The notes under the pieces are model-generated. The model was given only the letters and a program-made list of their open reading frames with translations, searched no databases and was not told the origin of the DNA. A program made the translations under genes and the position numbers. A DNA stretch of 64,000 nt from Erinaceus europaeus (Eukaryota; Chordata; Mammalia; Eulipotyphla; Erinaceidae): contig NC_080175.1 of NCBI RefSeq assembly GCF_950295315.1, forward strand, positions 85,811,566 through 85,875,565, given 5' to 3'. Shown here in pieces: positions 191-60,250 of this stretch. The first letter of the stretch is position 1. Each line of letters begins with the position of its first letter.

Positions 191-519
191 CAAAAGGAAA
201 TTTTTAAAAATTTCTGTATACTAAATTATCATTGTGACAATATAGTTCAAACTTATATTTATAGTTTGAGGAACTTGTTTCAATATAGGAAAATCCTCTA
301 CTTTGTTTCTCAAAGTTGTTTCTCACAAAATCTCACTATAAATAAAGAAGTTATCAGTCCTCCTACAGACCAGTTCAGATAAAATTTCCTCATAAGGATG
401 TTATTTGCCCAAAACTTGTACAAAAAAAAAAAAAAAAAAAAACCAAAAAAACCTCTCCCATAGAAAATCTTTAAGGACGTCAGAATGTTAGGATACATTT
501 ATCATTGAAGTGCTTTTTA
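191..519. other. Unannotated DNA with A20 tract
   Basis: AT-rich sequence with no recognisable repeat or gene. It contains a run of about 20 A (421-442). Short open frames on both strands show no domain or codon signal. Confidence 0.5.
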
Positions 520-651
520 TAAGTATTTATTTACTTACTTATTTGTTTATTTTCACAGAGAGACATTGAGGGGAAGTGGAGGTAGACAGGAGAGACACCT
601 GCCACTGCTTTACTGCTCATGAAGCTTCCCTTTCACAGGCAGGGAAGGAAA
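520..651 (-). mobile_element. SINE-B, truncated
   Basis: The reverse-complement tail (ATTTATTTACTTACTTATTTG) and the pyrimidine-rich and GAAGCTT core of SINE-B are present. The tRNA head is missing after about 650, so this is a 5'-truncated or decayed copy. Confidence 0.7.
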
Positions 652-940
652 ACCTTTTCATAATTCACTTCCTCTGTACCCTGAAAGAATCCAGAGAAAT
701 TTTTTCTACATACAACTGTAATAAACACATTTGTAAAGGCAACCTCAATCTACCTGAGAAGTTCTGTGATAACTAATATATACCAGAAATGACTAGAGGA
801 ATTGCTATTATCCAGAAAAATGGTTCCCTAAATTCAAAAAGGACAATGGTATCCCAGAGTGGAATAGACGAGCAAGTGGCAATACCGGGGAACTGAACAC
901 GATTACCATGTTGGACAACAGAATTAAAGTTACTATTAGA
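652..940. other. Unannotated DNA
   Basis: I see no repeat family, splice structure or sustained coding frame here. Confidence 0.4.
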
Positions 941-1156
941 GGCCGGGCAGTGACATTACTGGTGAAGTGCACATATTACTGTGCACAAGGACCTGGGTTC
1001 AAGCCCCCAGTCTCCAACTACAAAGGGAAAGCTTCATGAGCAGTGAAGCATGTCTGTCTCTTTCCCTCTCTCTGTCTTTTTCCCTCTCTACTCCCCTTCC
1101 CTCTCGATTTCTCTGTGTTCTATCAAATAAAATAAAGTTAAAAATTTTTTAAAAAT
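941..1156 (+). mobile_element. SINE-B
   Basis: The copy starts GGCCGGGCAGTGAC. A B-box-like GGGTTCAAGCC follows near 997, then GAAAGCTTCATGAGCAGTGAAGC, a CT-rich stretch and an A-rich tail ending in TTTTTTAAAAA. It is close to full length. Confidence 0.85.
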
Positions 1157-1676
1157 GAAGTCAGAATCAGAATTCCTTTCATACATTTAATCAATTGATC
1201 ATGAAGTCTCCATAGTCTGAATAGATAATTGAATTAAGTTTTCTTTGATTCATATAAACATTAGAATTATAGGTCTGATGAACAGAAGTCTGACTTCTTC
1301 AACAAACTGGAAAGTTACATTACTTTTACCACTTCCCACAGATTTTTGCAGCTTACAGACTCAAAGCTCTTTAAATAAAAATGACGCAGAGCCTTCCTGG
1401 GGATATCCTGCTATAATAATAATAAAAAAAAGATGCGTACTGTAAATTTTCATTCCCAACTTTTCCTAGAGAAGTCTATAAATGATAACTTATACTGAGG
1501 TGGTAGAATATAATAGAAATTTTCTGTTTTCTCATAGCAAAGAAGCAAACTAAGCTGAACTAAATCAAATACTTGAATGCTAACTATAGAACAGGGTTCT
1601 TCTTGGGGGGAGGGAGGGGGGGAAGTAGGATGCAAAAGCAAAGGGTGGATGTAAGAGCAAATACTATAAACATATA

Positions 1677-1682
<6 letters not shown>
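1157..1682. other. Unannotated DNA
   Basis: AT-rich sequence with no recognised repeat and no credible exon. A G-rich run (GGGGGGAGGGAGGGGGGG) lies near 1604-1622. Confidence 0.4.
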
Positions 1683-1710
<28 letters not shown>

Positions 1711-1736
1711 ATGAGAGAGAGAGGAAGGGAGGGACG

Positions 1737-1773
<37 letters not shown>

Positions 1774-1793
1774 AGAGAGAGAGGGAGAGGAGT
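1683..1793 (+). repeat. (TG)n then (GA)n microsatellite
   Basis: A TG dinucleotide run (about 1684-1710) passes directly into an imperfect GA/GGGA purine run (about 1712-1792). Long open frames that overlap it on the minus strand are low-complexity products of the repeat. Confidence 0.95.
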
Positions 1794-1821
1794 CTGTGAT
1801 GAAGTTGAGCAAAATGCCTTC

Positions 1822-2410
1822 TTTTAAAAAATGTTTTTATTCGGGGAATTATTGTCCACAGTAAATTGAGTTGATGGTACATTTGCAAACTTTCTTGTTT
1901 TTCTACAAAACACTCTCAACCCTGGCCCACATCTTTCTCTACCATAATGCACCAGGACCTGAAATCCCCCTTCCTCTGAGTCCTTCACTTTGATATAATG
2001 CACCAAATCCAGTCCAAGTTCTACTTTGTGTTTCTCCTTCTGTTTTTATTTCTCAACTCCTGTCTTTGAGTGAGATCATCCCATATTCATCCTTCACTTT
2101 CTGGCTAATCTCACTTAACATGATTCCTTCAAACTTCATCCAAGATGAGGTAAAAAAGGTGAATTCACCTTTTTTAATAGCTGAGTAGTATTCCATTGTG
2201 TATATATACCACAACTTAGTCAACCACTCATCTGTTATTAGACACATAAGTTGCTTCCAGGTTTTGGCTATCACTCAGCCACTTGTCTATTGTTGGCCAT
2301 GAAGGCTGCATCCAAGTTTTAGCTACTGAAAATTACGCTGCTATAAACATTAAGATCTTTTGGGTTGGGTGTGTTTGATTCCCCAAAAGAGGAATTGCTG
2401 AGTTATGGGT
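1822..2410 (-). mobile_element. L1 3' end, 5'-truncated
   Basis: On the minus strand this is the C-terminal end of L1 ORF2 followed by a 3' UTR. The reverse frame 2053-2274 carries the conserved L1 block around [13 protein letters not shown] and ends ...KDEYGMISL. The poly(A) side lies at about 1822 (TTTTAAAAAATG). It is divergent from the L1 at 40.8-46.9 kb, so it is an older copy. Confidence 0.88.
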
Positions 2411-2429
2411 TAGTTCCATTTCTAGCCTC

Positions 2430-2815
2430 CTATCTCTCCCTGTTTCTTTCTCTCTATTTCTCTGTTTCTATAGAAAGAAAAAAAGAAATGAAGGAAGGAA
2501 GGAGGGGAAGTAGGAGGGGAGAAAGGAAGGAATCAAGGGAGAAAAAGTGTAAAGTGATTGTGTCAGGAGCAATAGATCTGTTATGTAGGCACCACATCCC
2601 AGTGATAATAACCATGGAAACAAACAAAACAAAAAAACAACTCATTTCTCTCTGTCCTATCCAACAACAATGACATCAATAACAACAATAATAATAACCA
2701 CAAAAAGGATAAACAATGAGGGCAACACAAGGGGAAAAAATGGCCTCCAGGAGCAGTGGGTTCATAGTGCAGGCACCGAGCCCCAGCAATAACCCTGGAG
2801 GCAAAAAAAAAAAAA
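2430..2815 (+). mobile_element. SINE tail fragments, nested
   Basis: A CT-rich SINE tail (2430-2480) is followed by GA-rich sequence and two copies of a distinctive 3' module. That module is an AGCAGTGG/GTGCAGGCACC segment followed by an AATAACCCTGGAGGC-like segment and poly(A). The second copy (about 2640-2815) also keeps the TCCTATCCAACAACAATGACATC block typical of SINE-A. The head of neither SINE is present. Confidence 0.65.
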
Positions 2816-2825
2816 GTACTTAACA

Positions 2826-3022
2826 GGGGGCTGAGTGGTGACACACCTGGTTAAATACACATTATCATTCACAAGGGCCTGGTTTCAAGCCCCTGGTCCC
2901 CACCTCAGAGGAGAAGTTTCCCAAGTGGTGAAGCAATGCTGGAGGTGTCCCTATTTCCTTGTTTATCTCCCCTCCCTTTCAATTTCTATGTCTCAAACCA
3001 CAATAAATTAATTTAAAAATAA
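2826..3022 (+). mobile_element. SINE-B
   Basis: The copy begins GGGGCTGAGTGGTGACACACC. It keeps the B-box-like GGTTTCAAGCCCC and the GTGGTGAAGCAATGCTGG core, and ends AATAAATTAATTTAAAAATAAG. It is full length but moderately diverged. Confidence 0.85.
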
Positions 3023-3835
3023 GTCATGGGCTCCTTGGAATATACCTAAAGTAAACTTCTTAGCTTTTTCCCATACAAAGACCCTTAGTTCTATCTGCTC
3101 TATTCTTACTTATAGGTTCCTGGTTATTAAACCTTTTGTTCTGCCATATATATTCCTTTTCAGCCGCCAAGTTGTAGATGCTACCATGACACCAACTTGA
3201 CTTCTGTGGGCAGACAGCCTCACCAGTGTGTCCTGGAACCCTATCTCCCTAGAGCCGTGCCCCACTAGGGAAACAGGCTGGGGGGTATAGATAGGCCCGC
3301 CATAGCCCACATCCAGCTGAGAAGCAACTACGAAGACAGACCTTCCACCCCCTGCACCCCGTAAACAGTTTTGGTCCATATTTTCAGAAAGATAAAGAAT
3401 AAGGAAACTTGCAATGAAGGGGTTGGGATAAGGAACTCTGGTGATAAAATATATGGACTTGTACCCCTCTGTTTTTAAATATGTATTTATTTATTTTCCC
3501 TTTTGTTGCCCCTGTTGGTTTTTATTGTTGTGGTGGTTATTATTGTTGTTGTTGTTATTGATGTCGTTGTTAGATAGGACAGAGAGAAATGGAGAGAGGA
3601 GGGGTTAGACAGAGGGAGAGAGAAAGATAGACCCCTGCAGACCTGCTTCACCGCCTGTGAAGTGACTCCCCTGCAGGTGGGGAGCCGGGGGCTGGAATCG
3701 GGATCCTTATGTCGGTCCTCGAGTTTTGAGCCAGGAGCGCTTAACCCACTGCTCTACCGCCCGACTCCCTGGAATTGTACCCCTCTTATCCTACAACCTT
3801 GTTAACCATTATTAAATCACCAATAAAAAATAAAA
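3023..3835 (+). mobile_element. LX retroposon copy, 3' part
   Basis: This matches the LX repeat seen at many places in the window. It includes the CTAGGGAAACAGGCTGG-type segment, the ACAGACCTTCCACC segment, a CAGAAAGATAAAGAATA segment, and the end TTGTACCCCTCTTATCCTACAACC with an A-rich tail. A minus-strand SINE-A at 3471-3769 interrupts it. It is more diverged than the LX copies at 8.1 or 33 kb. Confidence 0.8.
3471..3769 (-). mobile_element. SINE-A inside LX
   Basis: A full-length reverse-oriented SINE-A, from a T-rich tail complement to the terminal CCCGACTCCC. It is flanked by a 17-bp target duplication, TGGACTTGTACCCCTCT at 3454-3470 and TGGAATTGTACCCCTCT at 3770-3786, with one mismatch. 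It therefore postdates the LX copy. Confidence 0.95.
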
Positions 3836-18423: not shown

Positions 18424-18590
18424 TTTTATTTTTATTATTATTGAGAGGGTTAATGATTTACTGTGCCATCATTGACATGTGCATACAATTTCATTATATA
18501 ATAGGCCCCCAGAGTTTTTTTCCTATTCACCCTCTCCCTTCCTCCTCCAGCCCAGAGTCCTTCATTTTGGTGCAATACACCATGTCCAGT

Positions 18591-18660
18591 GGGATGCATT
18601 GGATCGACCTTCTCGTGGTGCATCCTGTGAGTACCCATTCATTGGGGAAACTGACGATCC
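18591..18660 (+). ncRNA. Putative HDV-like self-cleaving ribozyme (HZ copy 1)
   Basis: The first 70 bases fit the nested double pseudoknot. P1: 18591-18597 (GGGATGC) with 18620-18626 (GCATCCT), 7 bp with a G-U first pair. P2: 18601-18606 (GGATCG) with 18655-18660 (CGATCC), 6 bp. P3: 18607-18609 (ACC) with 18617-18619 (GGT), with a 7-base L3 (TTCTCGT). P3 runs straight into P1 as in the family. P4: 18634-18637 with 18643-18646. J4/2 ends CTGA at 18651-18654, fitting C-N-R-A, with C18651 as the likely catalytic cytosine. Weak points: P1.1 has only one clear pair, P4 is short, and J4/2 has four extra bases (GAAA). Cleavage would fall just before 18591, the exact element boundary. Confidence 0.7.
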
Positions 18661-18787
18661 TTCCTAGCCGACTGAATCCACATGGATCCCAGTCACTTTC
18701 AAAGCCAGCAACAAGCAGCTCCTGACAGCTTTCAACCTGACCTGTTGACTGGCTATGGAAGAAGGGCAAACGCTAGAAGAAGAAGAA
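18591..18787 (+). mobile_element. HZ element, copy 1 (197 bp)
   Basis: A discrete 197-bp element starts GGGATGCATTGG and ends AACGCTAGAAGAAGAAGAA. It sits inside an L1 3' UTR between perfect 11-bp duplications, CCATGTCCAGT at 18580-18590 and 18788-18798. It is about 98-99% identical to copies at 21907-22103 and 60053-60250 and keeps several CpGs, so it is young. I see no tRNA, 7SL or 5S promoter and no poly(A). The tail is (AGA)n. The duplication does not start with the TT/AAAA-type site typical of L1-driven SINEs. The 5' end folds as an HDV-like ribozyme. Best reading: a non-autonomous, internally deleted derivative of a non-LTR retrotransposon, perhaps RTE-like. The family assignment is inference. 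Confidence 0.85.
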
Positions 18788-19264
18788 CCATGTCCAGTCC
18801 ATGATTCACTTTGTGCTCTCCCTCCCTGCCCCTATTTTATTAAGTCCCACAGATAAGTGTGAGATCATTTTTCTCCTTTTGGCTTATCTAACTCAACATA
18901 ATGTCCTCAAGTTTCATCCAAGAGGATGAAAAGGGAACAACCGCATTACTTTTAACAGCTGAGTAGTACTCCATCATGTATATATACCACAAATCTTTTT
19001 AACTACTCGTCTGATGTTGGACATCTGGGTTGTTTCCAGGTTCTTGAAATTACAAACTGTGCTGCTATAAATTTAAGTTTACAAGGATCTTTTCTGACAG
19101 GTGTTTCTGTCTCCTTCAGGTGAATTCCCAGGAGAGGAACTGCTGGGTCATAGGGTAGGTCCATTCCTAGTGTTCCAATAAGTCTCCAAACTGCTTTCCA
19201 CAGTTGGACCATTTTGTACTCCCACCAGCAGTGAAAAAGTATCCCTTTTTCTCCACATCCTCTC

Positions 19265-19372
19265 CAACATTTGTCCTTTCTTTCTTTCCTTTTTCCTTCC
19301 TTCCTTCCTTCCTTCCTTCCTTCCTTCCTTCCTTCCTTCCTTCCTTCCTTCTTTCCTTCCTTCCTTTCTCCC

Positions 19373-19450
<78 letters not shown>

Positions 19451-21906: not shown

Positions 21907-21976
21907 GGGATGCATTGGATCGACCTTCCTGTGGTGCATCCTGTGAGTACCCGTTCATTGGGGAAACTGACGATCC
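21907..21976 (+). ncRNA. Putative HDV-like ribozyme (HZ copy 2, altered L3)
   Basis: P1 (21907-21913 with 21936-21942) and P2 (21917-21922 with 21971-21976) are intact, as is P3. L3 carries a TC-to-CT change at the positions where the family is usually most conserved, so this copy may be weaker or inactive. Confidence 0.55.
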
Positions 21977-22103
21977 TTCCTAGCCGACTGAATCCACATG
22001 GATCCCAGTCACTTTCAAAGCCAGCAACAAGCAGCTCCTGACAGCTTTCAACCTGACCTGTTGACTGGCTATGGAAGAAGGGCAAACGCTAGAAGAAGAA
22101 GAA
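21907..22103 (+). mobile_element. HZ element, copy 2 (197 bp)
   Basis: Same start, end and length as copy 1. Differences: two adjacent bases in L3 (TTCTCG becomes TTCCTG), one A-to-G in P4 that leaves a G-U pair, and little else. Flanks are A-rich (TGAAAAAAAT on the left, TGGAAAAAAAAT on the right), so a target duplication is possible but imperfect. The (AGA)n end matches copy 1. Confidence 0.85.
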
Positions 22104-60052: not shown

Positions 60053-60122
60053 GGGATGCATTGGATCGACCTTCTCGTGGTGCATCCCGTGAGTACCCAT
60101 TCATTGGGGAAACTGACGATCC
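60053..60122 (+). ncRNA. Putative HDV-like ribozyme (HZ copy 3)
   Basis: P1 60053-60059 with 60082-60088, P2 60063-60068 with 60117-60122, P3 and L3 (TTCTCGT) as in copy 1, J4/2 CTGA at 60113-60116. The only change in the core is T to C at the last P1 position, which turns the terminal G-U into G-C, so pairing is kept. Confidence 0.68.
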
Positions 60123-60250
60123 TTCCTAGCCGACTGAATCCACATGGATCCCAGTCACTTTCAAAGCCAGCAACAAGCAGCTCCTGATAGCTTTCAACCT
60201 GACGCTGTTGACTGGCTATGGAAGAAGGGCAAACGCTAGAAGAAGAAGAA
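60053..60250 (+). mobile_element. HZ element, copy 3 (198 bp)
   Basis: Same ends as copies 1 and 2, with a one-base gain (GACGCTGTTG against GACCTGTTG) and two or three substitutions. Flanks share at most TTT, so I cannot show a target duplication. Orientation is again plus. Confidence 0.85.

Follow-up and report, generated by a model that had tools for sequence, protein, structure and literature searches.

HZ, a young 197-base element present in three copies in a 64,000-nucleotide stretch of the genome of the hedgehog Erinaceus europaeus (the whole stretch analysed, here called the window), is a deleted copy of a LINE of the same genome. The 70 bases with which both begin are predicted to fold as an HDV-like ribozyme that, in our judgement quite probably, cuts read-through transcripts before nt 1, and the RNA freed in this way would then be copied by the LINE protein.

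Layout of the predicted ribozyme

With HZ numbered such that nt n lies at window position 18590+n, the following features were assigned at the 5' end of the first copy.

18579..18590, + strand: 5' copy of the target-site duplication, 12 bp (ACCATGTCCAGT), abutting nt 1
18591..18660, + strand: HZ nt 1-70, predicted to fold as an HDV-like ribozyme that would cut between 18590 and 18591
18591..18597, + strand: P1 5' strand (HZ nt 1-7), pairing with 18620-18626
18601..18606, + strand: P2 5' strand (HZ nt 11-16), pairing with 18655-18660, 6 bp
18607..18619, + strand: P3 (18607-18609/18617-18619, 3 bp, HZ nt 17-19/27-29) and L3 UUCUCGU (18610-18616, HZ nt 20-26)
18620..18626, + strand: P1 3' strand (HZ nt 30-36), completing a P1 of 7 bp with G1-U36 as first pair
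C18612-G18627, + strand: putative P1.1, one pair only, by analogy with HDV
18634..18646, + strand: P4 hairpin CCCA/UGGG (strands 18634-18637/18643-18646)
18651..18654, + strand: J4/2 word CUGA (HZ nt 61-64), with 18651 as candidate catalytic cytosine by analogy
18655..18660, + strand: P2 3' strand (HZ nt 65-70)

The first-pass annotation of this DNA had drawn an HDV-like fold with a P1 of 7, a P2 of 6 and a P3 of 3 bp, an L3 loop, a P4 and the word CUGA, and the sequence, the coordinates and the pairing all agree with that drawing. A pairing check of HZ nt 1-70 found P2 and P3 contiguous and P3 leading straight into the 3' strand of P1. The features of the HDV-like class, a nested double pseudoknot built of P1, P2, P3, P1.1 (one pair) and P4, are thereby predicted for HZ, and self-cleavage would occur 5' of the first P1 base, the insertion boundary at nt 1 being an indirect sign of it. 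The HDV consensus words are U..CG in L3 and, in J4/2, the catalytic C and, after two more bases, an A. Both words occur in HZ and in the LINE-type 5' ends, the majority sequences being UUCUCGU/UUCCCGU in L3 and CUGA/CUAA in J4/2. We take C18612 and G18627 to be P1.1, and 18651 to be the candidate catalytic cytosine, by analogy with the HDV structure.

Two weak points named in the annotation, the single P1.1 pair and four extra bases in J4/2, are both real. The extra bases, GAAA at 18647-18650 (HZ nt 57-60), lie opposite AGUA at 18630-18633 (HZ nt 40-43), so that P4 may rest on a symmetric internal loop with four bases on each side. In R2 ribozymes, according to PMC3774820, P4 is highly variable and little is constant except four positions and the catalytic C; the P4 of HZ with its AGUA/GAAA loop therefore falls inside the known range. 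A nearest-neighbour fold free of pseudoknots gave a competing extended P1-like hairpin of -24.0 kcal/mol versus -16.7 kcal/mol for P1, P3 and P4 together, the 6-bp P2 being counted in neither value.

Covariance-model scores and chance expectation

The annotation had proposed to scan the region with the HDV-like models of Rfam. In a permissive scan of 18571-18690, HDV_ribozyme came out at the top of 4227 families with 26.6 bits (E 0.019 for this 120-base search), and the alignment placed the first P1 base of the model on 18591, in exact register. The score fell short of the gathering cut-off of 50. HDV_ribozyme was also the best family, and aligned in the same register, for the three of 42 LINE-type 5' ends that were scanned (25.2, 24.4 and 26.3 bits). 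As all four scores lie below 50, the sequences are not assigned to Rfam RF00094 (HDV_ribozyme). No match at gathering level is listed over the whole window, and the HDV match was absent from a permissive scan of the whole window (E up to 10), as expected, since the same score scaled to the window gives an E of about 10.

A double-pseudoknot descriptor, likewise proposed in the annotation, recovered 18591. In its strict form (P1 of 7, J1/2 of 1-4, P2 of 6 and P3 of 3, G-U pairs allowed, L3 TNCNCG, and CNRA before the 3' strand of P2) it matched the window at 18591 and 60053 only, with none on the minus strand, and gave 8 chance matches when 2.008 Gb of random sequence with the first-order composition of the window was scanned on one strand. 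A looser form (P1 of 6-8, P2 of 5-7, J1/2 of 1-5) matched 276 times in a one-strand scan of 504 Mb of uniform random sequence, that is, about 0.07 per two-strand window; the ranges of both forms were picked with HZ known, so these figures understate chance. The active-site words in the descriptors are HDV features, and the agreement with the insertion boundary was not built into them. Shuffling the mononucleotides of HZ nt 1-100 gave the topology alone, anchored at base 1, in 446 of 5,501,541 sequences. Unanchored and stripped of the active-site letters it is common in the window: the plus strand has 10 matches, three of them the HZ copies, and the minus strand 77, none of which contains CNRA.

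Insertion boundaries

The predicted cut had been claimed to coincide with the boundary of the target duplication, and indeed the 12-bp duplication stops at 18590 and nt 1 is 18591. The flanks upstream of nt 1 vary between copies. Duplications of at least 8 bp, with one mismatch allowed from 10 bp, were searched in 43 copies (41 HZ and the derivatives L060 and L065) by a test that had no shuffle control and whose hits include a few of low complexity; one was detected in 25 of the 43 copies, and by the same test none was found in the other 18. The duplication reaches nt 1 in 15 of the 25 (three share one G with the element and one shares three bases), and the remaining 10 have 1-5 extra bases before nt 1, T making up 12 of the 22 extra letters. 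An earlier exact-match test had found duplications of at least 8 bp in 21 of 41 copies, nine of them ending at nt 1. R2 elements whose cleavage site lies at their own 5' end likewise give variable 5' junctions (PMC3774820), and we count the HZ junctions in favour of the ribozyme.

T immediately precedes nt 1 in 33 of the 43 copies, as it does in 30 of another 39 copies of the LINE type. In 10 of the 11 copies with a duplication ending exactly at nt 1, the T belongs to the duplicated target. Whether a target or a second-strand preference, it is not fully explained by any reading offered here.

HZ is an internal-deletion derivative of a LINE

The rest of HZ and the other copies in the window comprise the following features.

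18682..18735, + strand: start of the LINE reading frame kept in HZ, ATG at HZ nt 92
18732..18787, + strand: LINE 3' end in HZ, with the last codons, the TAG stop at 18774-18776 and the (AAG)n tail
18787..18798, + strand: 3' copy of the target-site duplication, after the (AAG)n tail
21907..22103, + strand: second HZ copy, L3 UUCCUGU
60053..60250, + strand: third HZ copy, U36 changed to C, first P1 pair G-C

The second copy is predicted to be inactive because of its L3. A long CCTT/CTTT microsatellite (19267-19450) lies just downstream of the first copy.

The annotation had regarded HZ as SINE-like. It is not a stand-alone element but an internally deleted form of a LINE of 3.08 kb that the same genome contains: nt 1 to about 145 of this LINE are joined to about nt 3029-3082, the last 54 nt or so, and the junction lies inside a short TCAA overlap. 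HZ nt 142-197 are accordingly the 3' end of another repeat, the LINE, and both ends of one LINE are joined through an internal deletion, as is the mark of SIDE-type elements. An origin of HZ nt 1-70 in a LINE 3' region was considered and rejected.

Nor is the ribozyme sequence peculiar to HZ, for it also heads the LINE and further deletion derivatives, all of which have their 5' end in common with HZ. L060, L065 and L083 derive from the same LINE by internal deletion at other breakpoints, with HZ nt 1-149 joined to the LINE tail; in these 5' 149 nt the identity is 95-97%, and L060 continues into the start of the endonuclease.

A genome search with HZ returned 855 first-look candidates, and the best 40, which were scored, were 98-100% identical to the query, indicating recent amplification. 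Searches with four stretches gave 855, 578, 778 and 202 first-look candidates, which are not total copy numbers, and 40 were scored for each; nearly all copies studied here are the best-scored of their searches or adjacent to these. A genome search with the 3' half returned nothing, which has no bearing on rarity, as very common words are skipped in such searches. Around HZ nt 151, an extra G is found in 12, an extra A in three and neither in 26 of 41 copies, and nt 166 is C in 17 and T in 24 copies, suggesting several source copies of HZ.

The parent LINE

A contiguous copy of the LINE was found in L147, on the reverse strand at nt 422-3503, measuring 3,082 nt from ribozyme to tail. Its ATG at nt 92 opens a frame of 993 codons whose protein matches the endonuclease domains PF03372 and PF14529 and the reverse transcriptase domain PF00078 (RVT_1), and no RNase H match was obtained in this frame at E up to 0.1. 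L147 differs from HZ at six of the first 145 positions. In its own ribozyme the putative P1.1 pair is lost (G37 to A) and the second P1 pair is G-U. The stop codon stands directly before the short repeat tail, leaving almost no 3' UTR, and the tail is (TAG)n, not (AAG)n.

Two LINE loci have 1.26 kb in common at 94.8% identity, and RVT_1 was matched in three of six translated pieces from four longer loci. A search with another LINE stretch gave 778 first-look candidates, of which the 40 scored were 99-100% identical to the query, indicating that the LINE is young too. Copies with an inverted 5' part beside a forward 3' part were seen in L143 (296-1404) and L094 (42-1936), the inverted part of L143 extending to nt 1. 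A 5' inversion of this type is known for L1 as twin priming.

Variation among copies

In nt 1-70, HZ and the LINE-type majority differ only at positions 23 and 36. The former is the N of UNCNCG in L3, and the latter belongs to the first P1 pair, which is G1-U36 or G1-C36. Position 63, the purine of CNRA, varies within the LINE-type ends (CUGA in 24 and CUAA in 18 of 42) and gives CUGA in 41 of 41 HZ copies. The majority sequences of both lineages retain P1-P3. The differences at positions 23, 36 and 63 thus fall at sites that the predicted fold would tolerate; by our own estimate about 30 of the 70 positions are tolerant, so three in three at such sites is suggestive only.

The annotation had held that substitutions breaking the helices should be rarer than others among the copies. 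The ribozyme region is not better conserved than the rest among 41 HZ copies and 42 LINE-type ends, and at face value this comparison counts against the ribozyme. In HZ, 26 of 2870 cells are changed in nt 1-70 versus 29 of 4674 in nt 71-185, where nt 166 and the indel column are not counted, and in the LINE-type ends 48 of 2898 (nt 63 excluded) versus 20 of 2940 in nt 71-140. By our count, 11 of the 26 and 29 of the 48 changes in nt 1-70 lie at CpG sites or in nt 1-3; when these are left out, the LINE-type ends have 19 changes in nt 1-70 and 11 in nt 71-140, again without a sign of extra conservation. Compensatory double changes in P1-P3 were seen in none of the 41 HZ and 42 LINE-type ends, copies too young for such changes to be informative. 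P1-P3 and six core letters (G37 uncounted) are intact in 34 of 41 HZ and 23 of 42 LINE-type ends. As inserted copies decay freely and no selection is expected after insertion, conservation at the level of copies cannot, in our view, decide the matter, and we read it as neither support for the ribozyme nor its refutation.

Proposed mechanism and alternative explanations

We propose that HZ and LINE RNAs arise inside longer host transcripts by read-through; the Pol III boxes found are no better than those of shuffled sequences. Self-cleavage before G1 would free an RNA with a 5'-OH. With the start codon 21 nt past the last ribozyme base, the cleaved LINE RNA would serve as messenger, and the RNA released from HZ would carry only the two LINE ends. 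The LINE protein would bind the common 3' end and nick the DNA, and target-primed copying would run to the cleaved first base, so that full-length copies would begin exactly at G1 or after a few added bases. In this manner the ribozyme would restore a uniform 5' end in every cycle without a promoter of its own. On balance we also incline to the wider view that an intact mammalian LINE and its many short derivatives begin with a functional family of HDV-like ribozymes, that each sense insertion in a host gene is a potential cutter of RNA in cis, and that the LINE spreads without a promoter, freed from host transcripts.

The 70 nt might instead be some other signal, such as a promoter, a protein-binding hairpin or a translation leader, kept for transcription or packaging and resembling HDV by coincidence or secondarily. 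The lack of covariation in P1-P3 and of excess conservation among copies would suit such a signal, as would the stable competing hairpin (-24.0 kcal/mol), and a promoter role is plausible given that the Pr77 5' region of trypanosomatids is reported as both promoter and ribozyme. We nevertheless regard it as unlikely, since chance would seldom bring P1, P2, P3, L3 and the J4/2 word together in exact register at nt 1, HDV_ribozyme was the best of 4227 families in all four short stretches scanned, though below the cut-off, and the lineage differences lie at tolerated positions.

Alternatively, the sequence could be a true HDV-like ribozyme by descent that is now weak or dead, the 5' ends being produced by a promoter or by template jumping. 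A helix or core letter is broken in 7 of 41 HZ and 19 of 42 LINE-type ends, L147 has lost P1.1 in spite of its open frame of 993 codons, and the loop contains extra bases. The predominance of intact copies in HZ by the same test (34 of 41), the near identity of the 40 scored among the 855 candidates, which were recently amplified, and the retention of P1-P3 in both majority sequences make present inactivity decidedly improbable. Finally, the size and repetition of HZ recall an ordinary Pol III SINE moved by L1, a reading to which we give hardly any credence: a tRNA search of the window found none, the best A-box and B-box matches (consensus boxes only) were equalled by 1410 and 1551 of 2000 shuffles, and HZ shares its 3' end with the LINE, the tail being (AAG)n instead of poly(A). 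A tRNA-type SINE was rejected on the same tRNA and Pol III results.

Relation to known ribozyme-bearing elements

Ribozyme-headed non-LTR elements are known from insects, other invertebrates and trypanosomatids. An HDV-like ribozyme at the 5' end of a non-LTR element and of its deletion derivatives is therefore a known kind of arrangement, and a mammalian case is new to us and was not found in the openly licensed papers searched. The parallel with such elements, drawn in the annotation, is supported by two papers. The R2 SIDEs of Drosophila combine a 5' ribozyme with the 3' end of a LINE (PMC3414825), and the Ingi/L1Tc clade bears HDV-like ribozymes with the Pr77 hallmark (PMC4035085). Like the R2 SIDEs, HZ joins an HDV-like ribozyme (predicted for HZ) to a LINE 3' end and would be propagated by the protein of its parent. 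Unlike HZ, R2 and the R2/R1 SIDEs are described at fixed sites in rRNA genes and as cut from rRNA, whereas the copies of HZ are scattered through a mammalian genome and their parent LINE has an endonuclease of the Exo_endo_phos type. In L1Tc, NARTc and SIDER of trypanosomatids, a LINE and its short non-autonomous derivatives likewise share a 5' HDV-like ribozyme; they differ from HZ in their protist hosts and in a ribozyme activity shown in vitro, that of HZ being predicted. The R2 SIDEs are the direct precedent, and L1Tc and its derivatives the clade precedent, for the mechanism proposed for HZ.

The Vingi clade is defined by an endonuclease and a reverse transcriptase without RNase H, the composition found for the LINE here (no RNase H match at E up to 0.1). 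The LINE is probably the Vingi of hedgehogs, kin of the ribozyme-bearing Ingi/L1Tc elements, Vingi being the sister of the Ingi clade. In 2011 Kojima, Kapitonov and Jurka reportedly described Vingi-1_EE, a hedgehog LINE with endonuclease and reverse transcriptase and no RNase H, and are said to have noted short derivatives of it formed by internal deletion, such as Vingi-1N3_EE. The LINE and its internal deletions fit these traits, a likeness by description and not by sequence. To our knowledge no ribozyme has been reported on Vingi, and the CC0, CC BY and CC BY-SA literature searched yielded no such report for Vingi or hedgehog elements. The name Vingi-1N3_EE appears in PMC3183009.

The mammalian HDV-like ribozyme described in PMC4908430 is that of CPEB3, with one or two P1.1 pairs. 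Like it, HZ would have an HDV-like fold (predicted) with few P1.1 pairs in a mammal; the CPEB3 ribozyme differs in being an intron ribozyme of one gene, not part of a mobile element. Self-cleaving RNA within mammalian LINE sequence has been described for the human LINE-1 and OR4K15 ribozymes, which are reported to be twister sister-like, unlike the HDV-like sequence of HZ (PMC11620745). If true, our reading would show how a young LINE that has hundreds of candidate copies is expressed in a mammal without a promoter, and would extend the Ingi/L1Tc ribozyme story to vertebrates; it also raises the practical question of whether sense copies within genes cut host transcripts.

Reverse transcriptase relatives in viral contigs were looked for, and none was confirmed. 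Relatives of the LINE protein (protein hits P0122-P0148) were found in public contigs of 2-5 kb at 52-58% identity, one 97% piece apart, and in arthropod and tunicate records at 40-44%. Over the 120 listed of 194 related contigs the protein identity is 38-58%, again apart from that piece, and the 5' ends of the elements in these contigs may carry related ribozymes.
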